Program-made: the position numbers and the translations under genes
From: Sphaerolaimus hirsutus
Taxonomy: Eukaryota > Nematoda > Chromadorea > Monhysterida > Sphaerolaimidae
Assembly (NCBI GenBank): GCA_964036195.1
Contig: OZ038455.1
Span: 11,921,855 to 11,985,854 of the forward strand
Direction of reading: 5' to 3'
Length of the DNA stretch: 64,000 nucleotides
Notes under the pieces: model-generated
Told to the model about the DNA's origin: nothing
The model's input: only the letters and a program-made list of their open reading frames with translations
The model's database searches: none
Shown here: positions 114-48,295 of the stretch, piece after piece
How the letters are laid out: every line of letters starts with the position of its first letter
How positions within the stretch are numbered: position 1 is the first letter of the stretch

Positions 114-1030
114 TTGAAAACAAAAAAATAACTTGCACCGCGTGATCACAGGGCCAGCGGGTCAGGAAGACCTACCGCGATATAGCCGAGGCTGTTTAGG
201 GCACCGTGTGGGGAGGCAGGTTGGTACTGGCCGCGCAGATAACTGAAATCGTGATGACCTGTATTTTGTACATTGTGCTCGCCAGTGCGTTTACCATTTT
301 TTTGTTACCAAAGTATACCTCAGTCATCTTACACCATACACGAGTGGTACCCGCTGGAAAAGTGCCAACGATTTTTTTCACTTCATTTTCATAAAAAGTT
401 GAAAAAAGTCATCTCTGTTATAACGGTATATGTTAACTTATCCACAACAATGATTTTTCAATCTTTTATACAAAAGTCGCATGCTTTATCATCATTGGCA
501 CTGGCACGCTTCCAACGTGAGTTATGTTTGAATTGATGCTCTGATATCGAAATGTCAATTATGCTACATTAAAAATAATAGGCACATTTGAATGAAAAAT
601 GTGTGAAAAGGTTTGGTGAAAAAATAGAATGACAGCTCATTTCCGCAGCCATTTTTTGCAGCCGTATCAATTTGTTTGGGTGGTTTTTGCTGTTTATGCA
701 CCACAAAAATTTTCTCAGTTGCATTTTCTGTACTCGCGTATTTTCAAAAAGTATGAGAGTAAATGAAAGTGAGTACTGATATTTTTGGGAGGAAAAGTAA
801 ACATATTTACACAGTACTCGAGTATATGTTAATATGTTTTAACAACTATTTTTTGAACTATTGATATAATGACTAGTCAGTTAATGAGTTTTGAGTGACA
901 AGTACAAATTACCTGTATCTTGGCATGTGTAAACACTCAAGTAGTGTGTATACGTTCCCGCCTTGACTCTCTGCTCTGAATTTAGTGGAGTATTGTTTAA
1001 TTAGTAGAATAAATAGTAAATAAGAATGTG
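114..1030. other. Unannotated AT-rich stretch
   Basis: Only short open frames are present, with no recognisable motif, splice-consistent exon or RNA gene. A fragment at about 720-790 (TTTTCTGTACTCGCGTATTT) resembles the interior of the element at 10737-11183, so at least part is transposon relic. Confidence 0.4.
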
Positions 1031-1032
1031 TA

Positions 1033-1444
1033 CCGTATTTCTCCATGTAAACCGCCCCCCCCCGTGCACAACGCCCAGGGCGTTATACAGCTTTATAGCG
1101 CCCCCGGGGCGCTATACTTGGTTTCAAAAACTTAAGCCAAGTTGAAATATTTATATGTCAAATCGAGCTGCACAGTAATGAAGCGTTCAGGTCGTTTGAA
1201 TTTTTGAATGCTGTGACTTTGTGGCATGCATTGTTATTCAGCGTATGCACGTTTTTCATTTAATTCGCTGCACGCTGGGAACAAAACATATTTATGCAGA
1301 TATGTAAGCGAAATGTTTTCCGTGTATAACACCCCCCTCCCCAAAAATTTAACGCCCGGGCGTTATACAAGTTTTAAAAAAAAGGTTGCTGAAAAGTGCC
1401 TCGGTTTTGTATAACGCCCGGGCGGTTTACACGGACAAATACGG
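1033..1444. mobile_element. TA-flanked MITE, GTTATACACGCCC subfamily
   Basis: The ends are TA-CCGTATTTCTCCATGTAAA on the left and TTTACACGGACAAATACGG-TA on the right, an imperfect terminal inverted repeat with TA on both sides. The interior repeats the word CGTTATACA next to CGCCCGGGCG in both orientations. There is no coding capacity. Confidence 0.75.
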
Positions 1445-1561
1445 TAATGCGCAACTGGCATTGTTGAATGTTGCTCCAATTGCTTCCACTGAAACATTGT
1501 TAACTCAGCTACACGGATCACATTTTCCTGCTAACATTGGAGGGAAGCCTGGGGGCAGTCC

Positions 1562-1722
1562 CAGACCCTGTAAAATGCCATGTCAAATGTCATGCAAAGT
1601 GTCAAAAGTAATGTAAAATGCCCTGCAAAATGGCAAACATACATTTGTTATTTTGACGGGCATTTTACATTACTTGACACTGCATGACATTTGACATTTT
1701 ACTGGGAATTTCACAGGGTCTG
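1562..1722. mobile_element. Short foldback element, CAGACCCTGTAAAATG family
   Basis: An inverted repeat starts CAGACCCTGTAAAATGCC and ends in CAGGGTCTG. The interior repeats ATGTCATGCAAAGTGTCAAA. Related copies lie at 57409-57566 and 62924-63130. No clear target-site duplication is seen. Confidence 0.6.
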
Positions 1723-2376
1723 GTATTGGCACCTGGCTGACTGGTCCACATTCAAGCCTATGCTGCGCTGGACACACGCCACCGCCGCCACGTTTAAATC
1801 AGTTTTTGGTTTGATCGGCTTCCTCACTTTCTGCCAGTTAACTCAACAGGAAGTGCCAAATAATGTGCCGGGACAGTTTTTCAAGGTGGGTGAGAATGGC
1901 CTTCATTGGCGGTTTTTGTGTGATAAGCATTCACAAAATCACCTACTTTTGGAAAATATCATATTTCCTCGAAATACCCCCCCCCCCTTCAAATTGAGTG
2001 TCAAATTGAGGGGGGGTTAAACGAGGGGGTGGTATTTTGAGGGTGGCTTATTAGTTCGCCAGAAATTTTTTGAAATTCCAGTACTAAATTGTCATCAGTA
2101 ACGTACACAGATGTAGAAAAATGCAACAATAACCACTATATATAAGAGTCTATGCAGGGGTCTCCAGGATTTTGGCCCTCGCGGGGGGCTGGATAGATAG
2201 CAAATCGCTCCTCCAGAGGGATAGATAGCTGAAAATGTTTCTAGGGGGGGGCTGGGGGGGCTTGGGGGGGGGGGGGCTGGGGGGGCTTGGGGGGGGGCTG
2301 GTGGGGCGTGGGGGCACAATATATAGGCTTTTTCAAGGTTAAGGTAGAAAGGGGAAATAATAATCAGTTAAAAGTA

Positions 2377-2790
2377 CCATATTTCTCTGTGCATAAGGCC
2401 CTGGGCACTATACAAATTTGATGGCTTTTTTCAAACACTTTCCAAGTGCTGTGCATAGTGCCCGAGCAGTATGCATTTCACCCGACAATGTCTTTGTATA
2501 CCAGAAAGGTCACCGCCAATGCAGATAGCCTTGTGAAAGTCCCATCAAATGAAAATGCTAGACCAGACGCGTGCACGTGCACCAGATGCGCGTGGCGCGC
2601 CGCAACATATTAAATTGTTGCAACAGGCGCCAGCATGTGAAAATTTGGTCCATTTGTGAACTTAATCTGACTTGAGTGGCAAATATTTTTTTCTGTATTG
2701 CATAGTACCCGGGCACTATGCATGGAACTTGTTGCAGTGTATAATGCCCGGGCACTATGATCGGGGGGCCTTATACACGGAGAAATACGG
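2377..2790. mobile_element. TA-flanked MITE nested in the hAT-like element
   Basis: TA-CCATATTTCTCTGTGCATAA on the left and TTATACACGGAGAAATACGG-TA on the right form the terminal inverted repeat. The interior repeats GGGCACTATG and TGCCCGGGCA words. It sits inside 2155-3347, so it is the younger insertion. Confidence 0.7.
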
Positions 2791-2843
2791 TAGCTAAAAG
2801 TGGGTTTAAAATGGCTAAAAATAGGTATATAACCATCTATATA

Positions 2844-3043
2844 NNNNNNNNNNNNNNNNNNNNNNNNNNNNNNNNNNNNNNNNNNNNNNNNNNNNNNNNN
2901 NNNNNNNNNNNNNNNNNNNNNNNNNNNNNNNNNNNNNNNNNNNNNNNNNNNNNNNNNNNNNNNNNNNNNNNNNNNNNNNNNNNNNNNNNNNNNNNNNNNN
3001 NNNNNNNNNNNNNNNNNNNNNNNNNNNNNNNNNNNNNNNNNNN
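2844..3043. other. Assembly gap (200 N)
   Basis: A run of exactly 200 N. The flanking sequence (AAAATAGGTATATAACCATC) is the same on both sides, so the gap probably sits in or beside a tandem repeat and its length is a placeholder. Confidence 0.95.
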
Positions 3044-3499
3044 AAATTGGCTAAAAATAGGTATATAACCATCTATATAGCCGGAAAGCACAACTTTGAA
3101 GGTGAAAAACTATAAAAAGGTGCGAAAATTAGTGATTTTGAGGCAAAATTTCTCAAAAACCACTCCAGATAGATAGCTGAGCGATTTAAGGGAGGGGGGG
3201 GTCTTTGGGGGTAGTAGCCAAAAAATTTGCCTTGGGATAGATAGATAGATAAGTGGCCTCCGGGATAGATAGATAGCTGAGCGGCCTCCAGGATAGATAG
3301 ATAGCTGGCCAATTTGGGGGGTGTAGCCCCCCCCCAGGAGACCCCTGAGTCTATGGACTTATATAAGTGTGTAGATGGCATAAAGACTGTTCTGATGTAA
3401 CAATCCATTGTTTTTAACGTGTGTTTTGCATTGCCGAATCACAAACCGCAGGTTTTGTCATTAATGTTCTCTTTACACTCAATTAGTGGAGGTGAAAAT

Positions 3500-3720
3500 C
3501 GTTAATAAGGTATGAAAAATAGCGATTTTGAGCGAAAATTGGGGTATAGTTTCTCAAAAATCGCTACAGATACGTAGATAGCTGAGTGATTTGGGGGAAG
3601 GTTTGGGCCAAAAATTTTGCCTCCGGGATAGATAGATAGCTGAGCAGCCTCCGGGATAGATAGATAGCTGGGTGGTTGGGGGGGGGCGGAAACCCACACA
3701 CCCCTCATTCGATACCCCTG
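3500..3720. mobile_element. Fragment of a CAGGGGTCTCC-family arm
   Basis: Repeats of GGGATAGATAGATAGCTGAG and the neighbouring GAAAATTGGG sequence match the right arm of 2155-3347. No terminus is present. Confidence 0.5.
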
Positions 3721-4060
3721 CATTCAGTGACCACAAAAAAGCCACCAACCATTCGCCTCAACAATGGCCCACAAATTTGGTGATCGTGCCCATTTGGTGC
3801 GTGGCGCACACGAGCACATACTCAGTGTCTAGGCATGTTGGTGTTGGCATGTGGTCTTGCGTGTTTGCCATCAGCCAAGCTGTTCGTGTCCGCGCCCGAG
3901 CTGGCCGACACTTTGCCCATGCGGTTCAGGAACGTGTCTGATGGGAGATGTGAAAGTGGAGTCGCAGGGGTCAAAAGGCATCCAGATTCAGGGTTGCAAC
4001 AAAATAGCAGGATTTTTTGGTACAGTGCCAATACCAAGAAATTAAAATATCAGTTCCAAT

Positions 4061-7845: not shown

Positions 7846-9165
7846 TAGGGTTGGAAAAAAAAACGTTTTTTTTTAACTCGATGTTTTTTATAAAAAAAAC
7901 ACGTTTTTTTTAAAAGCTCCCAGATATGACCTCGCGTCAACATAAATATATAGGTATATCAGACAGTGGCAATACTCTGTGATGTTATATATGACCATAT
8001 AATGTCTGTGGAGCCATGGGATAGCATTATAAGTGGTGATTTGTGTCAAAAATATCCATTTTTCGTCGACATATCATTCGTATATCGCCTTATAGTTGAA
8101 TGTTCGTGACTTCAGGTAAAGTTTGGCACGGAATAGTGATCAAACAAGGTTATAAAAGGAGGTTGTTACTAGGGTTGGAAAAAAACGTTTTTTTTAACTC
8201 GGTTTTTTTTTTAAAACGTTTTTTTTTTAAAAGCTCCCAGATATGACCTAGTGTCAGCATATATAGGTATATCAGACACTGGCAATACTCTGTGATGTTA
8301 AATATGACCATATAATGGCTGTGGAGCCATGGGATAGCATTATAAGTGGTGATTTGTGTCAAAAATATCCATTTTTCATCGACATATCGTTCGTATATCA
8401 CCTTATAGTCGAATGTTCGGGACTTCAGGTAAAGTTTGGCACGGAATGGTGATCAAACAAGGTTATAAAAGGAGGTTGTTACTTTGGGAGTGAAGTTACA
8501 CACTGTGGAGGTACATGGAAGCACATTACCTCAATATTATATATTACAGCAACATATGTCGGCTTATTCACCCATGGTAGCACATAGAAATGGATGTTTT
8601 GATACTAAAAATGCAACAAAACCAATGAAAACAACCACCAATGTCAATTTGTGTGTGAAATTGCGCGCTTGCGTGCAAAAATTTTGCAAAATACCTAGTG
8701 CTTAGTACTAAAAATTTCGGCCTATGTTTAAAAAAAAAAAACATTTCAGACGTCATGTTTTTTTTTTTAACTTTTTTTTTATTTAAAAAACGTTTTAAAA
8801 AAATCGTCGGCCAACCCTAGTTGTTACTTTGGGAGTGAACTTACACACTGTGGAGGTACATGGAAGCACATTACCTCAATATTATATACTATAGCAACAT
8901 ATGACGGCTTATTAACCCATGGTAGCACATAAAAATGGATACTTTGATACTAAAAATGCCACAAAACCAATGAAAACAACCACCAATGTTAATTTGTGTG
9001 TGAAATTGCGCACTAGCGCGCAAAAATTTTGCAAAATACCTAGTGCTTAGTACTAAAAATTTCGGCCAATGTTTTTTTAAAAAAAACAACATTTCGGACG
9101 TCATGTTTGTTTGTTTTTTTAAACGTTTTTTTTTTTAACGTTTAAAAAAACATCGGCCAACCCTA
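7846..9165. mobile_element. TAGGGTTGG-family hAT-like MITE with 8-bp TSD
   Basis: TAGGGTTGG at the left and CCAACCCTA at the right are flanked by identical ATGTCAAC (7838-7845 and 9166-9173). Arms are TTTAACG/ACGTTTTTT repeats. It contains a second copy of its own family at 8170-8819. Confidence 0.9.
8170..8819. mobile_element. TAGGGTTGG-family hAT-like MITE inserted in a sister copy
   Basis: TAGGGTTGG and CCAACCCTA termini are flanked by identical GTTGTTAC (8162-8169 and 8820-8827). It is 650 bp and lies wholly within 7846-9165. Confidence 0.9.
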
Positions 9166-18097: not shown

Positions 18098-18763
18098 TAG
18101 GGATGGCCAGTGGGTTTTTTCAAGGTTTTTTTAAATAAAAAACGTTTTATTTATTTAAAAAAACCAACCATCGAAACCGTTTTTTGATATAAAAAAACCT
18201 TGGCGAAATTTTTTGGTTCTAAGCACTAGGTATTTTGCAATTTTTTTGCGCGCAAGCGCGCAATTTCACTTGTACTTTACCATTTGTGGTGGTTTTCATT
18301 GCTTTTGGAGCATTTTTATCGTTAAAGGTTCCATTTGTTTGTGCTATTATGTCATAATAAGCCATGATATGTTAGTGTAGTATATAATATACAGCTAATT
18401 TGCCCCCACATACTTGTACAGTGTGAAACACCACTGCCAATGTGTTAGCCTGCTCTTATATCCTTATTTAAGCACTTTTCCACACCCACCATCACTTGGA
18501 AGTCACAAATGTTCAACAGAAAGCGATATCAGTAATAAGTCGACATAAAACGGATATTGTTGACAGAAATCACCACTTATAATGCTATCCCATGGCTCTA
18601 AAGCCATTCTATGGCTATATATAACATCACAAAGTACTGTCACCTGTCTGATTTACCTGTATCTGGGAGCTTTTGAAGAAAAAAAACGGTTTTATTTAAA
18701 AATAAACCCGTTTTTGAAAAAAAAACGGGTTGTAGTTGAAAAAAAATTTTTCGGCCATCCCTA
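18098..18763. mobile_element. TAGGGATGG-family hAT-like MITE with 8-bp TSD
   Basis: TAGGGATGGCC and GGCCATCCCTA termini are flanked by identical GTCACGGG (18090-18097 and 18764-18771). It is 666 bp and non-coding. Confidence 0.9.
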
Positions 18764-18791
18764 GTCACGGGTTAAATAACCCGGCTCCAGC

Positions 18792-19519
18792 TAGGGTTGG
18801 CCGATGTTTTTTTAAACGTTTTTTAATTAAAAAAACGTTGTTTTTTTTAAACAAAATGACATCCGAAATGTTTTTTTTTTAAAAACATCGACTGAAATTT
18901 TTAGTACTAAGCACTAGGTATTTTGCAAAATTTTTGCGCGCAAGCGCGCAATTTCACACACAAATTGACATTGGTGGTTGTTTTCATTGGTTTTGTGGCA
19001 TTTTTAGTATCAAAGTATCCATTTAAATATGCTACCATGGGTTAATAAGCCATCAAATGTTGCTGTAGTATATAATATTGAGGTAATGTGCTTCCATGTA
19101 CTTCCACATTGTGTAACTTCACTCCCAAAGTAACAACCTCGTTTTATAACCTTGTTTGATCACTATTCCGTGCCAAACTTTACCTAAGTCACGAACATTC
19201 GACTATAAGGTGATATACGAACGATATGTCGACGAAAAATGGATATTTTTGACACAAATCACCACTTATAATGCTATCCCATGGCTCCACAGACATTATA
19301 TGGTCATATATAACATCAGAGTATTGCCAATGTCTGATATACCTATATATGTTGACACAAGGTTATATCTGGGAGCTTTTAAAAAAAACGTTTTTTATTT
19401 TAAAAAAAACGTTGTTTTTAAAAAAAAAAACGTTGTTGTTTTTTTAAACATCGAGTTGAAAAAAACGTTGTTGTTTTTTTAAACATCGAGTTGAAAAAAA
19501 CGTTTTTTTTCCAACCGTA
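18792..19519. mobile_element. TAGGGTTGG-family hAT-like MITE with 8-bp TSD
   Basis: TAGGGTTGGCCGATG at the left and CCAACCGTA at the right are flanked by identical GCTCCAGC (18784-18791 and 19520-19527). Arms are ACGTTTTTT/AAAAAACG repeats. It lies 28 bp from the preceding element. Confidence 0.9.
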
Positions 19520-20968: not shown

Positions 20969-21918
20969 TACATCTTAAATACGGTAGAAAAACGGTGCAC
21001 AGTGGGTCGTAAATATGTCAATATGTATAGTCGACGGACATATCATTCTACAAAATTGGAAAGTTATATTTTGTTCTTGTAGAGCGAACGAGAAAGGAAT
21101 TTAGTAAAAAAGAAAATATAAAGATAGTAAGAAGGAAAATAAAAATGTGCTGTTCTTTACGCACTCGTTTACTCCAATTTTTGTGCCGATAGGTGCTGCA
21201 AATTTTTGATTATACGTTTACCTACGTTTAATCTAATTCATATTTAGAAAAGTTACACGCTATCGATTCATTTTGACGAAAACTTGTTACGTTCAAAATT
21301 TTGAATTCAGAAAACGTTCCCTCTTTGTATTTATTCAGATCCAGACGACGCTTGGATGGCATCATGCCAAAAAACTCAACTACACTTTGACGGGGGTTTG
21401 AATTGTGCGGGCACAATTGAATAGTTTCATTCCGTATATGCGTAAGCACGAGTCACCAAAACAGAGTTCTACGGGTTGGATACAGCGTGCATGATATGAC
21501 ATCATGCAACTCATTGTATAGTATCATGTCTGCCGAGTATATTCTAATGGGGTGTTTCCCTCAGGTTGCTCAGACATGGGCGTATTTCAGTGGAGAGGTG
21601 TTAAATTGAGGAAATACGGTAAATGCACAAATGCACTAGAATAGGCAACATGAGTGCTTGGATTGTGCCTCATTTTTGTTTGGATTACGCCTGCTTGGAT
21701 TACGAGTGTTTGGATTTTGAGCTTTCACCATTCTATCGCCTAGCATTGAAAAAAACGACTGATTTTGAGAAAATATAATTAAATATTATCTCAGAAAATC
21801 TCTCAAGAAAAAAATATAATTAAATCTCTTGGGTCATTTTTGAAAATATAATTAAATCTCTGAGAAAATCTCTTGCAGTTCAAAAAATCTCATAAAATCT
21901 CTCAACTTAAAGTATGAT

Positions 21919-22348
21919 CTGATAAAAAATGTCTAAAGCCAACAAAAAGTGGACACTGCACCTAACCATGTGTATGCTTTTGAATGCACAAAAGTAATAT
22001 ATCATATACCATGCCATTTTCTGATTGAGCTATCAAGAGATGTATATCAAGGGAAATGTACACAAATGTACACGCAGCGTGAGCTGTGTCAAAGTGCTGC
22101 AAACATTAAATATACAAAAAGCTCATGCTGCCATGCAAAAGTTTGGTGAAATTGTTTCTTGTGATGCAGTTTGCTGTGTTGATAGCCTATATTATTAGCA
22201 TTTGTGTACATTTCCCTTGATATACATCTCTTGATAGCTCAATCAGAAAATGGCATGGTATATGATATATTACTTTTGTGCATTCAAAAGCATACACATG
22301 GTTAGGTGCAGTGTCCACTTTTTGTTGGCTTTAGCCATTTTTTATCAG
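21919..22348. mobile_element. TIR element CTGATAAAAAATGGCTAAAGCC
   Basis: Long inverted repeats (CTGATAAAAAATGTCTAAAG at the left, CTTTAGCCATTTTTTATCAG at the right) extend inward over more than 130 bp. A relative with a nested insertion lies at 43441-44279 and is followed by the same tail and the same kind of minisatellite. Confidence 0.7.
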
Positions 22349-22489
22349 ATATACTTCTTTTTCAGGGCCACAGGCCCAAAAGTTTATAAGTTATTGCAAA
22401 TCAAGCAAATGCCAAATGTGGCAGTGAGCAATACAATCTATTGTCAAGAAGAAGCCAAATACTAAGATTCAAAAGATTTTCAACCTGAC

Positions 22490-23275
22490 ATTTAGAACCT
22501 GAAAGTGATCACTTGACATTTATGACTTGAAATTACGCACTTGACAATAACTTGACATAAACCACTTGACATTTATGACTGAATGGCATCACTTGATATT
22601 TATGACTTGACATGAACTGCTTGCCATTTTTTCACCTGATAGTTTTCACTTGACATAAACAACTTGACAAGTATCACCTGAAAATTGTTACTTGACATAT
22701 TACTTGACATTTGACATGACATTTATCACTTGACATTAAACTTGACATTTCACTTGAAATTTATCACTTGACATTAAACTTGACATTTGACATGACATTT
22801 ATCACTTGACATTAAACTTGACATTTCACTTGAAATTTGTCACTTGACATTTGACTTGAAATGTGTCACTTGACATTTGACATGACATTTGACATTACAT
22901 TTCACTTGAAATTTATCACTTTACATTTGACTTGACATTCGACATGACATTTATCACTTGACATTAAACTTGACATTTCAATTGAAATTTATCAGTTGAC
23001 ATTTGACTTGAAAGTTATCACTTGAAATTTGACTTGATACTTTATCACTTGATATTTTATTACTATCTATCACTTGACATTTATCAATTGACATTTCACT
23101 TGAAATCTACCACTTGACATTTATCACTTGATATTTGACTTGATATTTGATCACTTAATATTTTATCACTAGACATCTATCACTTGACATTTATCACTTG
23201 ACATTTGACTTGACATTTATAACTTGACATTTGACTTGACATCAACCACTAGACATTTATGACCTGATAGTAATC
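22490..23275. repeat. Minisatellite of ATCACTTGACATTT units
   Basis: Dozens of imperfect units of about 14 bp (CACTTGACATTTATC and variants with TTGAAATT or TTGATATT). A second array of the same unit is at 44450-44870 in the same position relative to a related TIR element. Confidence 0.85.
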
Positions 23276-23889
23276 AGCATGCAAGGTCACATGCTCAGTA
23301 TCACATGAAGCAGTAGTTCAGGCATGTTTGCGCATTTTACACAAAATAAGCAAACTTGAATAACTTTTGTAAATCTGTACCAAAATTGCCAAAAATTGGC
23401 TCATTTGAAAGCTCTAGTCATGGCACACATCAACAAATTTTTTTTATTGCCCCATTTGTATTTAAATTTATTGAGGTTTGAAAATTTCAAACAGTTACCG
23501 TACCAAAGTGGGCGGAGCCTGTGAAAAAAAATACCGAAAATAAGAAATGGCATCATATTCTCTTTCAAATGAGCCATCAACCATGAAAATCGGTCATGTT
23601 TCAAGGACGTTATTGCAGTTTGGAGATTTTCGGGAGAACAAGAACAACAACAACAACAAGAACACTACTTGAAAAAGAAAATGCGTAATAACTTCCTCCG
23701 AACTCAACCGTTGGATCTGAAAATTTGCATGGTGGTACTTTTCGACACGGGCTTTTTAATGGTGCAGTCGGTTCTGCACTAGCGCATTGCGTTCCGAAGT
23801 TATTGCGATTTTCAATTTGCGATTTCCGCATTTTGGTGTGTCTGACCATATTATGGGTGGGTGGCTTGCGCCCTCCCTCGGCAGCGAGT

Positions 23890-24430
23890 TTTCTGTGTAA
23901 TACTCAGGTTGCTACACGACGAACCGAGCATACACTGTTGACTGCACTTCAGGAGGAATGGCGAGAGAACCTGCACGACTACAATTATTAAGGTTAGATG
24001 TTGTTTGTGCGCGCTGATTGTAGACGGTGAGTTCAATGCCACGGTTAGCTGAGTTACAGAATACCAGCACAAGCGGTCGTGACCCGGCACCTCGTTTATT
24101 AGAATATAAATAGACACACAAACACAATAATACTCAGCAGACAGGGCAATGGAATCACTTGCCACCTTGACTGCTATTCGGGGAGAAATCTCACAAAGCA
24201 CAGCTGTTATTCTCAGGCCACAGCTTAGCCAGTCTAGACTTATTTATAGCTTCTTCACAACTCCGGTAGACTACCCCGAATAGCCCTCAAGCGGCTACTT
24301 TTATACTCAATCCTCACTAGCTTACAACCAATCAGCATGGTCCCTCAAAACATGATATTGATTGCCAAAAGGTACAAAACATAACTTAATCAAAACCCTG
24401 ACATAACTTCATCACTTTTGGGCCTAAACA
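23890..24430 (-). mobile_element. Possible solo LTR on the - strand
   Basis: Read on the - strand, the segment shows in order a CCAAT-like box (GATTGGTTGTAAG), two TATA-like boxes (GAGTATAAAAGTAGCC and GCTATAAATAAG), an AATAAA signal (TCTAATAAACGAGG) and a possible terminal GAGTATTACA. This promoter-polyA arrangement is typical of LTRs, but no internal genes, primer-binding site or target duplication were found. It could also be an unrelated promoter. Confidence 0.3.
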
Positions 24431-25694
24431 TTTGGATACATTGAGATATTCAACTGACTTTGTTACTTCGTAGCATAGAGTACGCAACCTAAAGTATAGA
24501 ATACATGACAAAACATTGAATACATGACTGAGCACATGACATAAACAAAGAGTACGCAGTATAAGGTATAACATACTTGGCGATGCACTAAATACCTATG
24601 ACTAAGCATATAACACGAGGGATGGCGCTGGCGCGCCCACCCGATTTAATCGATATTTCAAGGTGTTTGAACCATAGAGAGTAGATATTAAGCACATTAT
24701 GTGTCGTTAAACATTTTCATTCACAATGACATGATAACAGCATATTGTCTACTGACAGCACACTCTGTTCTACCATGTGGTATCTGAATAATGAACAAAG
24801 ATATGATTTAGGTACATTTGTCCTTGTAGAAGACTACATTGCTTTCATGTGTGATGATCCCGGCAGAATTTATCAGACAACCTTTTCACCAAAATATGGT
24901 GACTATATTTCCAAAGCATGCTGTCAACTCGTTATTTGTTAAAATAGCTAGAACCCAGTGCACAAATTTACCCGGTGCACAAGTAAACAGCAACCTCCAG
25001 TGCCAATGTAGACCTCGGTACAGCCCCCATACTTTTGAGTACTAGGTCTTACTAGTACTAGTACTAATTTTTACACTTTATTTCTTTGAAAATTTATGAT
25101 AACTTTGTTCTAATACATGACGTTGACTCCACAAAAGATTTGGTTGAGTTCAGTGATACATTTCACTTTTACATTTGAATATTTATTACTTATTATTTTA
25201 CACTTATATTTCTGCTGATTTCTATTTCTTAATTTTTCACATTTCCGCGTTGTGATTTCGCTCACCGAGTGCATGGGTGAATTTAGTAATGAATTTTTGC
25301 TGAAAAACTGGAACATGCTAATGTGAATACGCTCTGCGGGGCGTTAGAAAACATGACAGATATAATGCAAGTAACTCAACATTTCTTCGCTAGTCCTCCT
25401 TTTTCCAGTTTAACGTTTAAAGCAACATTAAACATGGCATTTAACAAGCAATTAGAGGAGATCTGGGACCGGCTTTTAAGAGTGTACCGGGGCCAGTCGG
25501 TACACTCGGCATGCCCAGGCAACCTCCTATTAAAAGGTGGGAACCCTATTTAGGGTACCAGCCCGCCGATAAAGGCCTTTTTGGGCTCAAAAGTACTGGC
25601 GCCTTTTTCTCCTGCCCCTGGACAGGGCCAGCCAGGGTGCAGTACTTGGCCTGCTACTCATCCAAACCTTCCCTCTCACCCTTTCGCTACTTGA

Positions 25695-28451
25695 ACATGC
25701 ACGGTTGTGAATGATGGTACATCCATCGGTGTTACACAAAGACCACGTTCCGGAGAAATACTCACCACACAGTCATGCGGAAACTGCACATACTGCAATT
25801 TTATCAACTCAAAAGAATACAGTGATGCAAATAGTGTTGGCTATTCATTTTGCACACAACAAAATGGGCTGGCAAACTGCAACACTAAAAATGTAGTCTA
25901 CCTAATGACCTGCACAGAATGTAAAATTCATTATGTTGGTGAAACCTGCAGGAAACTGAAAATACGCATTGGGGAACATGTGAGGAGTTTCATCAAGGGC
26001 AAAATGCAAACAGAATTGGTCAAGCATTTTGCAAGACCAGGTCATAATCCAACATTTAAAATTTTGGGTATATATGAAAAAGAACATTTACTAGCAGCAG
26101 AAAAAGAATGGATTTTACTCTTGAATACGGCCTTCCCCTATGGTTTGAACACAAAGATTCAGGGCTATGGCACAATCAAAAAAGGGTGTATTCCTAAGTT
26201 CAATAATAGCCCATACTTTTGCCGACCAGTTCCACGAGACCACAGCGACAGAATACGCGGCAGAAAACGCAAACGAAAACGTTGGTCAATAACTGAAATT
26301 TGCTCCAAATTACTGGCAACAAAAGTTGATGAAATGAATTTCAGTGAAGTTATTAAACAGCTAAGGCGATGTAAAACACAGGAGCTTGCTGAAATGCAAA
26401 GAAAAATAATTGAAATACACAGAAGGCTTTGTGATAGTTCAACAGATCTCGCCTTGGCTGTACTAGGATTTTTGACAAGTAAAGGGGATCTTAATAAAAC
26501 GCCACAAGTAGATCTCAGAAAATGTCACTATTTCACATGCAAATTTCCAGGACCTACAATGGATTGCATTAGTCCAGCTAAATTTGTCAATAGTAAAAAG
26601 TTCTGTGACAAAATAAGTAATGACTGGCTAAAACTGAATAAATTTGTAATAAGTTTCACTTATGAAAAACCACTTTCACATCTACTATGCAACCACAACA
26701 AAGCATTCAAATCAATCAATGTGGAAAACCTAAAAACCATTTTAAATATGGATTGCCACTGCCATAGATCGAAATTTAGTAATAAATTTTATGGACATAT
26801 AATAACTGGGGACTTAAATGTTCTGGACAATAAAATTATTGAAAATGCCCTGAAACTGGGAGCTAAATATAGAAGCACTATAGACAAAAGCATTTCCGGG
26901 TGTAAAAACGAGATACTAAATCTTTTTAATAAAATTGGGGAAAAGTTACACTTACAAATCTCAGAAGAAATACAACAAGATCTGAATACCTATGTGAAAA
27001 AACGTACAAAACATTGGCATGATAATTACCCAGATCAGATTGACATAAACTACATAAAAAATGCCTGTCATGACCTACATAAAAAATACCTAATTGCACC
27101 AGCAGATAAAGCTACAAGCAATTTAATTGTTGTTTGTATAAAATTTGCTGCCATTGCATTGTGTAAAGAACTAGGGGTTTCATGGGTTGATGGTCAAATG
27201 AAATGTGATGGGAATGCCACTTACAAACCAGTGCCTGGCACAGAAAGTGAAATTATTGACAGACATAATAATATATTAGACAATTTAAACATCCATAAAA
27301 ACACTGAATGGCAGACTTTACCTAGATTATTTCCTATACCTAAAATGCATAAAAAACCACCAAAATTTAGATACATTAGTGGAGGCAGTAAGGCACCCAT
27401 TAAACCAGCAGCAATTACACTTCACAGAATTCTCCAACACTTCAAACAGCACATGCGAAATTACTGTTACAGTATTTCTGATGCAAACAACATAAGCTGT
27501 AATGCATATTGGCCATGTGAAAGTTCACTGGAAGTACAAGAATTTGTGGAACACCTATCCACTGAAGGTAGACAGGTTAAATGTTTCAGTGGTGACTTCT
27601 CCACACTTTATCCAAACATGTGTCATGAAGAAATATGCTGCTGTATCTACAAACTAGCCAACAAGTGTTTTACCAATGCTAATAAAAATTTTTTAATAAT
27701 AGGCTGGCATAACACATGGTATAGTGCAAGCAGACACACAAAACTACTGTCTTTTGATATTGAAGAGGTAATAAATTTACTTAAGACTGTACTTTCAGAG
27801 TCCTATCTCATTTTTGCCAACCAATTATTCAGACAAACTTCAGGACTTCCTATGGGGTGTGCCTCAGCACCTAGTATTGCATGTGCAAGTCTAATGTGGC
27901 GAGAAATTGAATGGGTGCTGCGCAATAGAGAATTGCAGAGAAATATGTTTCGATGCTTCAGATATATTGATGATTTATTGATATGCTACAAAGACGGGAA
28001 GGGAATAAATGCCGATGAAATAGTGAAGGAAATATACCCTGCAAATCTACCACTAAATCGTACAGATAGAGAGGGAACATCGACAGACTTTTTAGATATG
28101 ACACTAAATTTTGACACCATGACTTGGAAACTATATGATAAAAGACTAGATTTCTCATTCAAATGTATTATAGCCACCAACTTTAGAAGTGCACAGGCAC
28201 TGTGTGTGAAAAAAGGCACATTTTTTGGTCATTGGCTTAGAGCAATGAGACTATGCTCCAGCTGGGATAATTTCTGTTTAAGTATCAAACCAATTATTAA
28301 TGGTCACCTGGAAAATGAATATACTTATGACATTTTATTTGAAACTGCCATCAAATGCACATCTAGGTATAGAGATTTACTTTGGAAATTCAACATGCAA
28401 CTTGACATAAACACATTGGTAAAAATAAGAAACTTGATCAATAGAAAGTAA
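25695..28451 (+). CDS. GIY-YIG endonuclease / reverse transcriptase polyprotein (Naiad-type PLE)
   Basis: One open frame encodes the retroelement protein that nicks target DNA and copies the element RNA into it. Numbering from codon 25707: C24-x2-C27-x2-C30; GIY-YIG core at V64-Y65 and Y76-V77-G78 with R87, H91, H107, H113 and a catalytic-region Glu near 132-134; a basic run at about 186-193; the linker motif D349-C350-H-C352 that marks permuted PLEs, followed by G-D-L-N-V-L; RT fingers F542-P-I-P-K-M-H; motif A G629-D630; motif B S712-G-L-P-M-G717; motif C Y753-I-D-D756. The endonuclease lies N-terminal to the RT, unlike canonical Penelope elements. All catalytic motifs are intact and there is no internal stop. 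No ATG precedes residue 67: the frame opens at 25695 after a TGA, so a non-ATG start or a spliced first exon is needed. An acceptor-like CACCACACAG ends at 25772 in phase 0. Confidence 0.93.
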   Translation, partial: TCTVVNDGTSIGVTQRPRSGEILTTQSCGNCTYCNFINSKEYSDANSVGYSFCTQQNGLANCNTKNVVYLMTCTECKIHYVGETCRKLKIRIGEHVRSFIKGKMQTELVKHFARPGHNPTFKILGIYEKEHLLAAEKEWILLLNTAFPYGLNTKIQGYGTIKKGCIPKFNNSPYFCRPVPRDHSDRIRGRKRKRKRWSITEICSKLLATKVDEMNFSEVIKQLRRCKTQELAEMQRKIIEIHRRLCDSSTDLALAVLGFLTSKGDLNKTPQVDLRKCHYFTCKFPGPTMDCISPAKFVNSKKFCDKISNDWLKLNKFVISFTYEKPLSHLLCNHNKAFKSINVENLKTILNMDCHCHRSKFSNKFYGHIITGDLNVLDNKIIENALKLGAKYRSTIDKSISGCKNEILNLFNKIGEKLHLQISEEIQQDLNTYVKKRTKHWHDNYPDQIDINYIKNACHDLHKKYLIAPADKATSNLIVVCIKFAAIALCKELGVSWVDGQMKCDGNATYKPVPGTESEIIDRHNNILDNLNIHKNTEWQTLPRLFPIPKMHKKPPKFRYISGGSKAPIKPAAITLHRILQHFKQHMRNYCYSISDANNISCNAYWPCESSLEVQEFVEHLSTEGRQVKCFSGDFSTLYPNMCHEEICCCIYKLANKCFTNANKNFLIIGWHNTWYSASRHTKLLSFDIEEVINLLKTVLSESYLIFANQLFRQTSGLPMGCASAPSIACASLMWREIEWVLRNRELQRNMFRCFRYIDDLLICYKDGKGINADEIVKEIYPANLPLNRTDREGTSTDFLDMTLNFDTMTWKLYDKRLDFSFKCIIATNFRSAQALCVKKGTFFGHWLRAMRLCSSWDNFCLSIKPIINGHLENEYTYDILFETAIKCTSRYRDLLWKFNMQLDINTLVKIRNLINRK

Positions 28452-28545
28452 CTTTTTAATCACCCATTTATGACTGAAAATGCCCTGAATATCAAGCAAA
28501 AAATCAATAGAAGGCGGAAATTTGAAAAAATTAGGTGCGCTCACG

Positions 28546-28554
28546 TATAAAAAG
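28546..28554 (+). promoter_or_regulatory. TATA box in PLE 3' region
   Basis: TATAAAAAG lies 34 bp upstream of an ATG at 28580 and within the element, 95 bp after the ORF stop. In Penelope-like elements the promoter sits in the pseudo-LTR, so this probably drives transcription of a following tandem unit. Confidence 0.55.
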
Positions 28555-28579
28555 ACACCGGGTTTACCTCACTTTCATT

Positions 28580-28672
28580 ATGACAAGGATTGGCTGCAAA
28601 CGCAAAATTGACACGCTGGGAGGCGATAATATGTCGAGCGCCGAATCTACGCCCACCGGCCCCGCCGCTCCA
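28580..28672 (+). CDS. Candidate first coding exon of the PLE (pseudo-LTR)
   Basis: From ATG 28580 an open 31-codon stretch (MTRIGCKRKIDTLGG..., second Met at 28631) ends exactly at a strong donor, CCA followed by GTAAGT at 28673. The phase is 0. In a tandem arrangement this exon could be spliced to the acceptor-like site at 25772 (also phase 0) just before the first Cys motif of the long ORF, which would explain the missing ATG. The peptide has no recognised domain. This is inferred from signals only; no transcript is known. Confidence 0.45.
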
Positions 28673-28710
28673 GTAAGTTTGTAGGGTTAGGTAGTTAGTT
28701 TAGGTAGTAA

Positions 28711-28815
28711 GTATGGTGGTCAGTACTGATGAGACCCTGCCACCACCCCGGAAAAAAACCCTGTCTACTGAAAAGGGTCGAAACAGGGTACCGGTTTGGA
28801 GGTGCTGAGGGAGTG
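28711..28815 (+). ncRNA. Hammerhead-ribozyme-like motif in PLE 3' region
   Basis: CTGATGA (28726-28732) is followed directly by GACCCT (28733-28738), whose perfect complement AGGGTC (28774-28779) is followed directly by GAAAC (28780-28784). This is the hammerhead core order with a 6-bp helix II and the expected G-C closing pair. A short helix III can be drawn as CAGG-GTA-CCGG with one mismatch, ending in GTT as the cleavage triplet. Helix I is weak (TCAG pairs with CTGA after an internal loop). The 35-nt helix II loop is long, and ACCCTGT (28759-28765) can compete by pairing with ACAGGGT (28783-28789). Confidence 0.5.
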
Positions 28816-29225
28816 CACCATGTGAAATTTCCAAGCCGCTTTTGTACTTTTTCTCACCTTTCCTTCAACCAGCACTTATTTTAAAAATATTCTCACTTCA
28901 TGGGACTGCAGGGGTTCAGTATGGTTCAGGAGGGTTTAAACCACATTTACACAAAAATACATATACTTGAATACTAAGTAAATACATCTAAATTTCCTCT
29001 GAAAACGTACCAGTATTCGTTTTTGTGTATAATAGTTTGTGTCTTTTGTTTGAAGGACTTTAACTCTAAATGTGTCTTTTGTTTGAAAGTACTATAGTAC
29101 AGAAATTGTATTCCGGATAGACTTTTTTATTGGCTCTTTCATGCCATAAAACAGAAAAAGGGGAGGAAAAACTACAAATAGGGGGGGGGGGAATACCCAA
29201 AAATGGCTATGTAAGAAAATATATA

Positions 29226-29339
29226 CCATAGTATATCTTATTATCCCCCCTTGAATTAACCCCACCCCTCAAATTAACCCCCCTAAAATTTTGCTGGCGA
29301 AATCATATACCCCCATGGGGTTATTTCGAGATAATATGG
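29226..29339. mobile_element. Short TA-flanked MITE (TTGAATTAACCCC variant)
   Basis: TA-CCATAGTATATCTTATTATC at the left and TTATTTCGAGATAATATGG-TA at the right. Present in both duplication copies (copy B about 46728-46840), so it predates the duplication. Confidence 0.6.
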
Positions 29340-30519
29340 TAGTTAAAAATAGATGAAAATTGGGAAAAAAGCACATGAACTAGTGAATTTGAGCTGAAAA
29401 TGGGCAAATATAGAGAGATTTTCTTGAGAGATTTTCCCAATCAGATGAATATATAATTATATCTCTCTGGAAAATCATGGAAAAAATATAAATCTCAGAA
29501 AATCTTATATTTTCCGAGATTTTCTGAGATTTTTTAAATATAAATCTCCCAGAGATTTTTTCAATGCTAATCGCGACCTAGGCAGGGCCGTATTGGTACA
29601 TGCACTAATGCATGGAAATATCATATACTTGAACTTTGAAGAAACTTTCCAAATCATTCATAATGTTTCGATTTGATTGTGTTTATTTGCATAGGTAAAA
29701 GTATTATTTCTTGAAGATGGGGTCTGCAAACAATGCATGGGGTGGCTGGCGGGCGATATTGATTACAACCGGAAGTGTCATACTTTATTTCGCACTTATC
29801 ACTTTCATTGGGCAATTGCGTGTTTGCCATGTAAATAGGTAGGTACAATCGGCAGGGTTACTGGGCGCAAAATTGTAATCCCCCTCACAAAATGCATGAA
29901 ATATAAGCTGATTTCTTGGTAATTCACCCGACATGTTTTTTGTGCAGCCCTATTTATTGTAAAATTGAATTTATTTTAATTGTAATTATTTTCTTAGGAC
30001 CGGCCAGTGAATAGTGTATCCGGCTGCCGAAAAAATCGTTGGGCTAAAGAATTACCTACGTAATTTCCCTACAAGAAACAAGAATGCTTTTCCGTCAGTG
30101 TCTATTTTAATGGTGATAGAAACAATGTTTATCGTGGAATTCGCGAAAATTCAAAATATGATTGAAATAATCTATGGAATTGGTTCAGTTTTCGCGGGTA
30201 ATCGATCGTTGACCGGGCGCAATAAAATATGGGTGAAGGCATTTCAGTATGCGCAATTTGTTGTTCTACTGTTTTATCAACATACTAAATATCCGACACC
30301 TTTGATTTGCCCATAAGCGGTTAATTCGGTAACATGTGATAATCCCCGTCGTTTTATGGTTGCGCGTCAGTTTATAAGTAGCGTGAATTTTGGGCAAATA
30401 TCAAGTTAACATTTGACGTTTTTATCATTTTTCATATTGAACTTTTGTCTTTGTCATACTAAAGAATTTGTCTTCTTGTCAAGACGTTATCCATAGCCAC
30501 ATGATTTGTCACATGGCCA

Positions 30520-30700
30520 CACATGTAAATTCCTCCTGCTCTTCTATTGGAAGCCGCCGTTCTATTATTTTCGTGACCAAAAGTGTGGAAAAACCTGCCG
30601 TTTCGTTTGGAGGCCCGCTTCTATCGCATCGGAGGTATGTCGTTCTATTGGAATGCGGTACATAGTGTGTCGATGGAAATACGGTACGCATTACTAGCTT
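30520..30700. repeat. CGTTCTATTGGAA repeat block, - orientation
   Basis: Words such as CCGTTCTATTATTTTCGTGA, AAAACCTGCCGTTT and GTCGTTCTATTGGAA are the inverse of the block at 33060-33190 (AATAGAACGGCACCTCCAAT). The two blocks are 2.4 kb apart in opposite orientation in both duplication copies, and may be termini of one larger element. Confidence 0.5.
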
Positions 30701-30708
30701 CAATATTA

Positions 30709-37628: not shown

Positions 37629-38091
37629 ATGTTATACACATGTTCGTATATCGCCTTATAGTCGAATGTTCGTGACTTCAAGTGAAGTTTCGCACGGAAT
37701 AGTGATCGAACAAGGTTAAAAAAGGAGGTTGTTACTTTGGGAGTGATGTTACACACTGTGGAGGTACATGGAAGCGCATTACTTGAATATTATATACTAC
37801 AGCAACATATGACGGATTATTGACCCATGGTAGCACATAGAAATGGTAGCTTTGATACTAAAAATGTCACAAAACCAATGAAAACAGCCACCAATGTCAA
37901 ATTGTGTGTGAAATTGCGTGCATGCGCGCAAAAAAATTTGCAAAATACCTTATTACTAAGTGCTATTATTATTAAGTGCTTATTACTAAAAATTTTGGCC
38001 GATGTTGTTTTAAAAAACGTTTCGGACCTCGTGTTTAAAAAAACGTTTTTTTATAATAAAACGTTAAAAAAACATCGGCCAACCCTACTTT

Positions 38092-45839: not shown

Positions 45840-47072
45840 TAGCATTGAAAAAAACGACCGATTTCGAGAAAATATAATTAAATATTATCTCAGAAAATCT
45901 CTCAAGAAAAAAATATAATTAAATCTCATGGGTCATTTTCGAAAATATAATTAAATCTCTGAGAAAATCTCTTGCAGTTCAAAAATTCTCATAAAATCTC
46001 TCAACTTAAAGTATGATTTAATCGATATTTCAAGGTGTTTGAACCATAGAGAGTAGATATTAAGCACATTATGTGTCGTTAAACATTTTCATTCACAATG
46101 ACATATGATAACAGCATATTGTCTACTGACAGCACACTCTGTTCTACCATGTGGTATCTGAATAATGAACAAAGATATGATTTAGGTACATTTGTCCTTG
46201 TAGAAGACTACATTGCTTTCATGTGTGACGATCCCGACAGAATTTATCAGACAACCTTTTCACCAAAATTTGGTGTCAACTCGTTATTTGTTAAAATAGC
46301 TAGAACCCAGTGCACAAATTTACCCGGTGCACAAGTAAACAGCAACCTCCAGTGCCAATGTAGACCTTGGTACAGCCCCCATACTTTTGAGTACTAGGTC
46401 TTCATGGGACTGCAGGGGTTCAGTATGGTTCAGGAGGGTTTAAACCACATTTACACAAAAATACATATACTTGAATACTAAGTAAATACATCTAAATTTC
46501 CTCTGAAAGAGTACCAGTATTCTCTTTTGTGTATAATAGTTTGTGTCTTTTGTTTGAAGGACTTTAACTCTAATGTGTCTTTTGTTTGAAAGTACTATAG
46601 TACAGAAATTGTATTTCGGATAGACTTTTTTATTGGCTCTTTCATGCCATAAAACAGAAAAATGGGAGGAAAAACTACAAATAGGGGGGGGGGAAATAGC
46701 CAAAAATGGCTATGTAAGAAAATATATACCGTAGTATATCTTATTATCCCCCCTTGAATTAACCCCACCCCTCAAATTAACCCCCCTAAAATTTTGCTGG
46801 CGAAATCATATACCCCCATGGGGTTATATTGAGATAATATGGTAGTTAAAAATAGATGAAAATTGGGAAAAAAGCACATGAACTAGTGAATTTGAGCTGA
46901 AAATGGGCAAATATAGAGAGATTTTCTTGAGAGATTTTCCCAATCAGATGAAAATATAATTAAATCTCTCTGGGAAATCATGGAAAAAATATAAATCTCA
47001 GAAAATCTTATATTTTCTGAGATTTTCTGAGATTTTTTAAATATAAATCTCCCAGAGATTTTTTCAATGCTA
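45840..47072. mobile_element. TAGCATTG-family hAT-like element, intact copy B
   Basis: TAGCATTGAAAAAAACG and TTTTTTCAATGCTA are flanked by identical ATCGCGAC (45832-45839 and 47073-47080). Arms repeat AAATATAATTAAATCTCT; no transposase is encoded. It holds the empty site of the Penelope-like element at 46407-46410. Confidence 0.9.
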
Positions 47073-48295
47073 ATCGCGACCTAGGCAGGGCCGTATTGGT
47101 ACATGCACTAATGCATGGAAATATCATATACTTGAACTTTGAAGAAACTTTCCAAATCATTCATAATGTTACGATTTGATTGTGTTTATTTGCATAGGTA
47201 AAAGTATTATTTCTTGAAGATGGGGTCTGCAAACAATGCATGGGGTGGCTGGCGGGCGATATTGATTACAACCGGAAGTGTCAGACTTTATTTCGCACTT
47301 ATCACTTTCATTGGGCAATTGCGTGTTTGCCATGTAAATAGGTAGGTACAATCGGCAGGGTTACTGGGCGCAAAATTGTAATCCCCCTCACAAAATGCAT
47401 GAAATATCAGCTGATTTCTTGGTAATTCACCCGACATGTTTTTTGTGCAGCCCTATTTATTGTAAAATTGAATTTATTTTAATTGTAATTATTTTCTTAG
47501 GACCGGCCAGTGAATAGTGTATCCGGCTGCCGAAAAAATCGTTGGGCTAAAGAATTACCTAAGTAATTTCCCTACAAGAAACAAGAATGCTTTTCCGTCA
47601 GTGTCTATTTTAATGGTGATATAAACAATATTTATCGTGGAATTCGCGAAAATTCAAAATATGATTGAAATAATCTATGGAATTGGTTCAGTTTTCGCGG
47701 GTAATCGATCGTTGACCGGGCGCAATAAAATATGGGTGAAGGCATTTCAGTATGCGCAATTTGTTGTTCTACTGTTTAATCAACATACTAAATATCCGAC
47801 ACCTTTGATTTGCCCATAAGCGGTTAATTCGGTAACATGTGATAATCCCCGTCGTTTTATGGTTGCGCGTCAGTTTATAAGTAGCGTGAATTTTGGGCAA
47901 ATATCAAGTTAACATTTGACGTTTTTATCATTTTTCATATTGAACTTTTGTCTTTGTCATACTAAAGAATTTGTCTTCTTGTCAAGACGTTATCCATAGC
48001 CACATGATTTGTCACATGGCCACACATGTAAATTCCACCTGCCCTTGTATTGGAATCTGCCGTTCTATTATTTTCGTGACTCAAAGTGTGGAAAAACCTG
48101 CCGTTTCGTTTGGAGGCTCGCTTCAATCGCATCGGAGGTATGTCGTTTTATTGGAAGAAACACGGTACATAGTGAGTCGATGGAAATACGGTACGCATAA
48201 CTAGCTTCAATTTTATGTTGTTTGAATGCAGCGATCCACTCGCCTAAAGACAATTTTTTTTGTTGGAACATGTGTCAACTTGTTTGCCATCGTTA

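Follow-up and report, generated by a model that had tools for sequence, protein, structure and literature searches.

Within a 64,000-nucleotide stretch of the genome of the nematode Sphaerolaimus hirsutus (assembly GCA_964036195.1, contig OZ038455.1, positions 11,921,855 to 11,985,854; "the window", whose own numbering is used here), we analysed a Naiad-type Penelope-like retroelement together with its relatives elsewhere in the same genome. The comparison suggests that the Naiads of this animal are probably dicistronic and intron-bearing retroelements, which would produce their endonuclease-reverse transcriptase (EN-RT) from an internal ribosome entry site (IRES) similar to those in the intergenic regions (IGRs) of dicistroviruses and which carry a strand-permuted hammerhead motif. 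This reading draws on features seen directly: the anatomy of the elements, covariation in two structured RNAs, the logic of the EN-RT reading frame, splice signals, shared 3' ends and low ratios of non-synonymous to synonymous change (dN/dS) in three of the six pairs of open reading frames (ORFs) compared. The window copy itself appears, from its sequence, to be a shortened copy of this dicistronic family. Its two main features are:

25051-28898, plus strand: 5'-truncated Naiad-type Penelope-like element, recognised by its absence from a duplicate of the locus, its shared 3' end and the greater upstream length of full units
25653-28451, plus strand: EN-RT ORF (GIY-YIG endonuclease, CxC linker, telomerase-like RT), broken by an in-frame stop; identified by domain search, alignment, fold comparison and frame check

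A structured RNA ahead of the EN-RT frame

In the excerpted text of PMC10516663, type 6 IGR IRESs span 126-205 nt and consist of a domain 1 with an internal loop and pseudoknot II (PKII), a domain 2 with pseudoknot III (PKIII), to which stem-loops IV and V (SLIV and SLV) are added in types 6a and 6b and reduced or absent in types 6c-6e, and a pseudoknot I (PKI) directly upstream of the first codon, commonly GCU, GCA or CAA; in type 6e, the first codon is GCU, ACU/ACC or UCU/UCA/UCG. In the IRES of Israeli acute paralysis virus, a CCU triplet takes part in PKI and in the P site, and the next codon occupies the A site (PMC4132737, in part). The EN-RT frame of the window copy is preceded by a structured RNA of 193 nt (25460-25652) with two covarying pseudoknots, which ends directly before an in-frame GCU codon:

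25460-25655, plus strand: IGR-IRES-like RNA with first codon; 174.5 bits with our covariance model R1, in whose training the window copy took part (as L009)
25461-25467, plus strand: 5' strand of helix P0, pairing with 25514-25520; outer stem of domain 1 (P1.1-like); two-sided changes in 7/7 pairs
25480-25507, plus strand: hairpin P1 (P1.2-like), with the first pseudoknot strand in its loop; two-sided changes in 9/9 pairs
25492-25497, plus strand: 5' strand GCCAGT of pseudoknot a (PKII-like), pairing with ACTGGC at 25595-25600; 100% of cells paired, two-sided changes in 2/6 pairs
25536-25567, plus strand: helix P3 (GGTGGG:CCCGCC) around hairpin P4 with loop TATTTA, at an SLIV-like position; covariation analysis
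25574-25587, plus strand: hairpin P5 (GGCC:GGCT), at an SLV-like position; column-pair scan, 18 two-sided changes
25616-25637, plus strand: hairpin P6, whose loop holds the 5' strand of pseudoknot b; 80.0% of cells paired, two-sided changes in 5/6 pairs
25625-25629, plus strand: 5' strand GGGCC of pseudoknot b (PKI-like), pairing with GGCCT at 25648-25652; 100% paired, two-sided changes in 2/5 pairs; 6 bp in the column-pair scan
25653-25655, plus strand: GCT as the deduced first (non-AUG) codon of EN-RT, immediately following pseudoknot b; in frame with the ORF in 19/20 copies

The structure was derived from 20 copies at loci L009-L038, with near-duplicates (L010, L014, L021 and L022), copies truncated in this region (L016, L017, L026 and L028) and loci with no readable module (L031 and L036) left out. 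In their MAFFT alignment of 207 columns, eight helices (P0, a 3-bp stem, P1, P3, P4, P6 and the two pseudoknots) comprise 46 pairs, 28 of which show two-sided changes; 93.4% of the 920 cells are paired, and the covariation score reaches 0.569, compared with 0.155 after shuffling and at most 0.128 after sliding. A block alignment anchored on motifs and made without P6 yielded 98.1% pairing and a covariation of 0.591. When column pairs were scanned with no structure given (stacks of at least three pairs, at least 85% paired, at least three two-sided changes), nine stacks were returned, namely P0, P1 in two parts, P4, P6, pseudoknots a and b, P5 and one weak extra pairing. Six of the eight helices were recovered in this way, the 3-bp stem and P3, which change little, being the two that were not.

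On copies outside its training set, the model scored 171 bits for both L021 and L022, which are close to L020, and 157 bits for L046, at another place, and found no match in L016 and L026. The combined P3 and P4 pattern occurs once in the window, against an expectation of 0.00, and ten times in the genome (zero in the control), with nine of these matches located 145-228 nt upstream of an EN-RT match. The tenth, at G000:C4:2408829-2408849, has no EN-RT match listed nearby. Read by eye, the 5' regions of the four deepest Naiad families (L052, L054, L056 and L058) display a PKI-like loop, GGAC or AGAC, that is complementary to GUCC or GUCU just before the EN-RT frame.

The codon that follows pseudoknot b is GCU in 17 of the 20 copies, CCU in two and UCU in one, and the first methionine of the open frame falls at widely varying places among the loci, often deep within the protein. 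The pseudoknot strands change in step, reading GGCC:GGCC in the 13 copies outside a family that we call group C and GGUC:GACC in the seven group C copies; five variants of the outer pair occur. At the border between pseudoknot and start, CCU GCU is found in 11 of the 13 copies that do not belong to group C. As in type 6 IRESs, a 3'-terminal pseudoknot stands directly before a non-AUG codon, which we infer to be the start codon.

No in-frame AUG precedes the frame before a stop in 13 of the 20 copies. In group C, the GACC change creates an in-frame UGA two codons before the deduced start (7/7 copies), and between this UGA and the conserved RTYC codons a phase-0 AG is absent from all seven copies and AG is absent altogether from three. 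Neither an upstream AUG nor ordinary splicing can therefore start the frame in group C. Because the other seven of the 20 copies do have an in-frame upstream AUG before any stop, the argument from missing AUGs rests mainly on this group. The same data make it very unlikely that EN-RT is produced by splicing exon 1 or the exons of ORF1 (described below) into the ORF, an arrangement that could account for the absence of an AUG: exon 1 with its phase-0 GT donor is conserved in the 3' region and introns exist upstream, but exon 1 fits exon 2 of ORF1 in phase, and in all seven group C copies the UGA stands ahead of the ORF with no phase-0 acceptor before conserved coding sequence. As a source of the AUG, splicing of exon 1 into EN-RT was rejected for group C on these grounds.

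We also consider it improbable, if less so, that the 5' RNA is a structure for RT recognition or packaging and not an IRES, with translation starting at a near-cognate codon by scanning. The Poseidon element of Anolis requires the first 172 nt of its ORF, and both RT-binding RNA and the start of reverse transcription map near the ORF start (PMC11167929, in part). The stretch ahead of the ORF is better conserved in our elements (71-79% in ten relatives, the window copy and its 99% sister aside) than the rest (65-72% in most of the long matches listed). However, the close copies here have their ends downstream of the hammerhead and not around the start of the ORF, the first codon follows immediately on pseudoknot b with the frame kept in 19/20 copies, and a scanning ribosome coming from a cap would need to pass through ORF1 and about 190 nt of structure. 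The two roles could also coexist in one RNA. We favour a 5' RNA that would bind ribosomes and start translation of EN-RT, as its structure and position suggest.

ORF1, exon 1 and a strand-permuted hammerhead

Group C hammerhead patterns occur as seven same-strand pairs with a spacing of 5.7-5.9 kb, delimiting units of about 5.8 kb. We read the upstream regions of four group C units (L062-L065) and one group A unit (L066). In L062-L065, ORF1 lies between the upstream hammerhead and the IRES-like RNA and consists of exon 2, which we read as coiled-coil-like, exons 3-5 and exon 6 with the stop, the latter located about 345-381 nt upstream of the IRES-like RNA in 4/4 group C units. Compared exon by exon with L062, L063-L065 show 59-92% identity. 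In L066, parts of exons 2-5 could be matched at 40-55%, and no exon 6 was found. In L062 and L065, as read by eye, the phases fit and GT-AG signals are present at the 2/3, 3/4 and 5/6 junctions, with the 4/5 junction needing a GC donor. The ORF1 protein has no Pfam match, and two hits to PDB structures above E 0.06 were taken as chance.

Exon 1 precedes the upstream hammerhead in L063, L064 and L066, where its peptide is identical to that of the same element's 3' exon 1, and in L065 the match extends over 43 residues. The five query peptides, which did not include the 3' exon of L062 itself, gave no match in L062. Since exon 1 and the hammerhead are present at both ends, the 3' copies belong to a pseudo-long terminal repeat (pseudo-LTR), with the upstream hammerhead located in intron 1. 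From the start of the window copy to its 5' RNA there are 409 nt, which is too short to reach the ORF1 exons as placed in L062-L066, and the copy contains no direct repeat of the pseudo-LTR kind beyond matches of 15-18 nt. In its 3' region, we identified the following parts:

28546-28552, plus strand: TATA-like sequence upstream of exon 1, identified by eye
28580-28672, plus strand: exon 1 of ORF1, 31 codons (MTRIGCKRK...GPAAP), with a phase-0 GT donor at 28673; matching ORFs were read in the families, and it stands upstream of ORF1 in full units
28714-28745, plus strand: helix IV, bridging stems I and II, TGGTGG (28714-28719) with CCACCA (28740-28745); two-sided changes in 5/6 pairs
28721-28737, plus strand: block C, with stem I 5' strand CAGTA, CTGATGA (28726-28732) and stem II 5' strand GACCC; scan and covariation
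28759-28770, plus strand: block S, with stem III 3' strand CCCTGT, C17 at 28765 and stem I 3' strand TACTG; predicted cleavage at 28765/28766; scan and covariation
28775-28788, plus strand: block G, with stem II 3' strand GGGTC, GAAA (28780-28783) and stem III 5' strand CAGGG; scan and covariation

The hammerhead core (28714-28788) is non-circularly permuted, its strands following the order C-S-G. Eckert et al. (2023) named this order type CSG, known in the excerpted text of PMC10085705 from two exclusively metagenomic sequences with no host element, and cleavage rates of 0.004 and 0.026 per min were measured in vitro for two RNAs of this type (PMC10085705, in part). A scan by pairing rules returned a single CSG match in the window (at 28726, with stems of 6/6/6 bp) and none on the other strand. 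Among loci L001-L038, 36 of 38 contain a match, corresponding to 29 of 31 distinct places, as seven loci repeat a place. In first-order Markov sequence (60 x 64 kb, or 3.84 Mb, one strand), a single match of 12 bp arose, with none reaching 13 bp. Exact patterns were found at 46 and 67 places in the genome, counts that include the loci already read and in which pairing was checked in part, and reversed controls gave 0.

With laxer limits, the loci yielded 31 distinct cores, reduced to 21 distinct block sequences for the covariation analysis. In these, pairing holds for 95.6% of 432 cells, two-sided changes are seen in 16 of 22 pairs, and the covariation score is 0.607, compared with 0.164 after shuffling and at most 0.124 after sliding. 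The changes are shared within about five families and do not represent 21 independent events. Helix IV is paired in 91.7% of cells, evaluated in 16 of the 21 cores, the five group B cores having been set to N. CUGANGA, GAAA and UH occur in all 21 cores, which were themselves selected by that motif.

From its core sequence, the hammerhead would cut at 28765/28766. An unlikely alternative is that the CSG fold lacks catalytic activity in vivo and has been retained for some other role, such as RT recognition of the 3' region. Some points are in its favour: L015 and L018 fall below the scan threshold, group C has an extra U after CUGAUGA, and in the Anolis element hammerhead mutants left insertion in vitro unaffected and reads had no RNA ends at the cut site (PMC11167929, in part). 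Set against these are the catalytic motifs, which persist in all 21 motif-selected cores while the stems covary, and the in vitro cleavage by the two type-CSG RNAs of the same strand order. We retain the reading of a putatively self-cleaving RNA.

Several further features of the 3' regions were recorded. L060 and L061 carry a CSG core; L061 has two on the same strand, separated by 813 nt and each containing CUGAAGA. At G000:C2:29543624-29580034, four group C hammerhead patterns occur within 37 kb on one strand, possibly a pseudo-LTR array. In the four deepest Naiad families (30-32% identity), an exon-1-like ORF that ends at GT is retained without a CSG hammerhead. Downstream of this exon, L051 and L057 have a different stretch in common (TGCAGATGGCC...GGCCATGCCACTCC with a variable hairpin), which may be a further structured RNA. 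L055 has a sub-threshold Rfam match to mir-2024 on the minus strand at 147-225 (31.2 bits, gathering score 69).

Identity, insertion and state of the window copy

The EN-RT ORF extends from stop to stop over 25695-28451 (918 aa). Pfam places GIY-YIG (PF01541) above its cut-off at aa 66-145 and RVT_1 (PF00078) at aa 683-770, below its cut-off (24.6 against 29.6 bits). It was aligned with 17 other proteins encoded in the same genome, which share 40-67% identity with it. GIY-YIG lies N-terminal to RT, as seen from the Pfam order in the ORF and from EN and RT residues conserved in the alignment of all 18 (including the RT motif YIDD). Both C354 and C356 of the CxC linker are invariant in 18/18 proteins, which bears out the permuted domain order and linker noticed in the sequence-only reading. 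Invariant as well are C73, C76, H95 and H111 of the EN, which we read as a CCHH-like set. An AlphaFold2 model built on this alignment (predicted local distance difference test 78.4, predicted template modelling score 0.60) retrieved telomerases at ranks 1-18 of the PDB fold list, with a best E of 3.6e-11, and the predicted fold of the RT is telomerase-like.

The Naiad clade reportedly comprises the Penelope-like elements with an N-terminal EN, the CCHH residues of which are said to separate it from Chlamys; canonical hammerheads are reportedly lacking in Naiads. By its domain order, CxC linker, CCHH-like set and telomerase-like fold, the window element is of Naiad type; it has no Rfam hammerhead match, and the hammerhead that it does carry is non-canonical. 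Scans of IMG/VR viral contigs and of prokaryote contigs found no relative.

The element interrupts copy A of a segmental duplication, in plus orientation, and its 3.85 kb are absent from copy B. Upstream, A 24643-25050 aligns with B 46015-46402 (93.2% with gaps, four mismatches); downstream, A 28896-30708 aligns with B 46400-48215 (97.7%).

46397-46402, plus strand: uninterrupted target (empty site) in copy B, from the alignment of A and B

The empty site reads ...GTACTAGGTCTT^CATGGGACTGC..., and since CTT sits at both junctions in copy A, the target repeat of the window copy is 0-3 bp. An insertion with its empty site preserved 21 kb away, as originally proposed, is confirmed by this alignment; that the insertion is recent also holds. 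It is extremely unlikely that the difference between A and B is an assembly artefact, even though it is known from the assembly alone, because the aligned blocks are 85-98% identical with other indels, which is not what one sequence assembled twice would give, and the element stops at the 3' end shared by its family.

Insertion ends were also mapped for other copies. The 3' end is common to copies of the family and the 5' end is variable: the former is considered fixed because, among the 50 matches listed, five including the window copy reach query 3845-3848. Target repeats in the three close copies inspected are 0-3 bp (window copy), about 3 bp (L002) and 7-8 bp (L007), so that a tiny or absent target duplication describes the window copy and not the family.

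The window copy was initially regarded as intact and possibly active, neither of which is upheld. It is 5'-truncated relative to the ~5.8-kb units, without the upstream promoter region, exon 1 and ORF1, and its EN-RT frame is interrupted 13 codons downstream of the deduced start:

25692-25694, plus strand: in-frame stop codon, from frame comparison of 19 in-frame copies

The window copy alone among these 19 has a stop there; its sister L010 is open. Readthrough or selenocysteine insertion at this codon was judged unlikely because the sister and the 18 other in-frame copies are open at this position. The family has nevertheless been active recently: the sister copy on contig C15 (L002/L010), 99.3% identical over query 280-3845, retains an open frame, and contig C4 holds a 736-bp copy (L007) at 99.5% identity. 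The low dN/dS values mentioned above are 0.078, 0.124 and 0.156, the last two sharing L020.

Around the insertion, copy A holds about 2.7 kb (window 21918-24643) missing from copy B, which contain a minisatellite (22636-23053) and a 99% inverted repeat (21917-22068/22199-22350). A dispersed repeat family of about 300 bp, with direct and inverted copies of 73-94% identity, occurs at window 8389-9138, 18131-19185 and 37642-37934. Elsewhere in the genome, the mitochondrial COX1 of L068 (G000:C762) has AGA at conserved Ser-like places and uses ATA and TGA as sense codons; it is free of stops in five of six codes, of which code 5 (AGA Ser, ATA Met) is preferred by eye, making a protostome the probable host.

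Proposed expression and comparison with known systems

These parts can be assembled into a scheme of expression. The 3' region, which doubles as pseudo-LTR, would supply the promoter region and coding exon 1. In a transcript from the upstream pseudo-LTR, exon 1 would either be spliced over the hammerhead-containing intron to the exons of the ORF1 protein, or the RNA would be cut in intron 1. The cut RNA would be uncapped, and the IGR-like RNA could still yield EN-RT from it: after the ORF1 stop, it would place ribosomes on a non-AUG codon, mostly GCU, and EN-RT would be made without an AUG. Reverse transcription would start at the shared 3' end, about 130 nt downstream of the predicted cleavage site. 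We lean towards this fuller version, with less assurance than towards the general reading given at the outset: Naiads would use a factor-free IRES of the dicistrovirus type for EN-RT, coupled to a CSG hammerhead in the first intron and pseudo-LTR, such that splicing gives a capped ORF1 mRNA and self-cutting an uncapped, IRES-dependent EN-RT mRNA.

A number of observations weigh against these readings. All copies of both RNAs come from one genome, and the two-sided changes in the 5' RNA trace to about five families, not to 20 independent events. The copies were cut out with motif anchors that restricted the first codon to [GCT][CT]T; the codon after pseudoknot b is out of frame in L024, and there are the seven copies with an upstream AUG. 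The 5' RNA model gives L031 just 35.8 bits and has no match in L036, L052, L054, L056 or L058, the last four being 5' regions of the deepest families. No CSG hammerhead was found in the 3' regions of these families (L051, L053, L055 and L057) or in L059; L015 and L018 are missed by the hammerhead scan, and L039-L050, which hold 5' regions, contain no match. Rfam 15 at permissive thresholds returned no hammerhead for 24500-29500 and neither hammerhead nor IRES for the flanks of ten relatives, in both cases with sub-threshold matches only; for the 5' RNA, it gave three sub-threshold matches up to E 10, none to an IRES family. A PKIII-type pairing was looked for in the 20-copy alignment and not found. 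Finally, dN/dS is 0.756 between the window copy and its sister (16 changes) and 0.492 for L013/L014 (three changes), and L011/L012 is saturated. Because no PKIII and no Rfam IRES match were found and ribosome binding is putative, we describe the 5' RNA as apparently IGR-like in layout and do not call it a member of type 6.

We take the Naiad organisation to be GIY-YIG before RT, a CxC linker, CCHH in the EN, pseudo-LTRs and a telomerase-like RT. To our knowledge, Naiads have a single ORF, to which a spliced second one is added here, together with the IGR-IRES-like RNA and the non-AUG start. The window family shares the domain order, linker, CCHH, pseudo-LTRs and RT type with Naiads as reported by Craig et al. 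(2021); a hammerhead is present here, but of a non-canonical type. Penelope-like elements without canonical hammerheads perhaps process their RNA by a strand-permuted one. A literature search over titles, the beginnings of abstracts and term counts, with most subscription papers and preprints outside it, found none among the papers listed that links such ribozymes, or IGR IRESs, to Naiads or to Penelope-like elements.

With type 6 IGR IRESs, as far as the excerpted sources and the general layout of their helices allow comparison (Abaeva et al. 2023, PMC10516663; Ren et al. 2014, PMC4132737; Murray et al. 2016, PMC4861600), the 5' RNA shares a length of about 190-200 nt, a domain 1 with internal loop and an apical loop that pairs downstream (P0, loop, P1 and pseudoknot a), two hairpins (P4 and P5) at the place of SLIV and SLV, and, at its 3' end, a pseudoknot of 5-6 bp directly adjacent to GCU or a similar codon. 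It also lies between two ORFs in 4/4 group C units, the window copy itself being without ORF1. The internal loop is likened to L1.1 by position only. In contrast to type 6, the host is a retroelement, no PKIII pairing was found, and there is no Rfam match. An animal retroelement appears to carry, between its ORFs, an RNA of the layout of a type 6 IGR IRES. If the proposed reading is true, IGR IRESs would be placed outside dicistro-like and other RNA viruses, and exchange between viruses and retroelements, in either direction, would be possible.

The hammerhead agrees with type CSG in block order, core nucleotides, the helix bridging stems I and II and the short link between these stems. The excerpted text of PMC10085705 describes two sequences with modest covariation, whereas many copies in one retroelement clade of one genome are seen here, with covariation in four helices and a location in intron 1 and the pseudo-LTR as features of their own. 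These rare ribozymes would gain a natural home, and two orphan sequences a host clade with ample covariation.

The Poseidon element of Anolis (Frangieh et al. 2024; PMC11167929, in part) likewise has a hammerhead at the border of pseudo-LTR and ORF and starts reverse transcription downstream of the cut: cleavage lies 26 nt into the ORF and reverse transcription starts 111-118 nt in, with insertion in vitro independent of the cut. A start of reverse transcription below a hammerhead may be a trait that the Anolis element shares with the Naiads described here. Unlike these, the Anolis element has a C-terminal EN, a hammerhead drawn in the usual form, a start codon and a single ORF.

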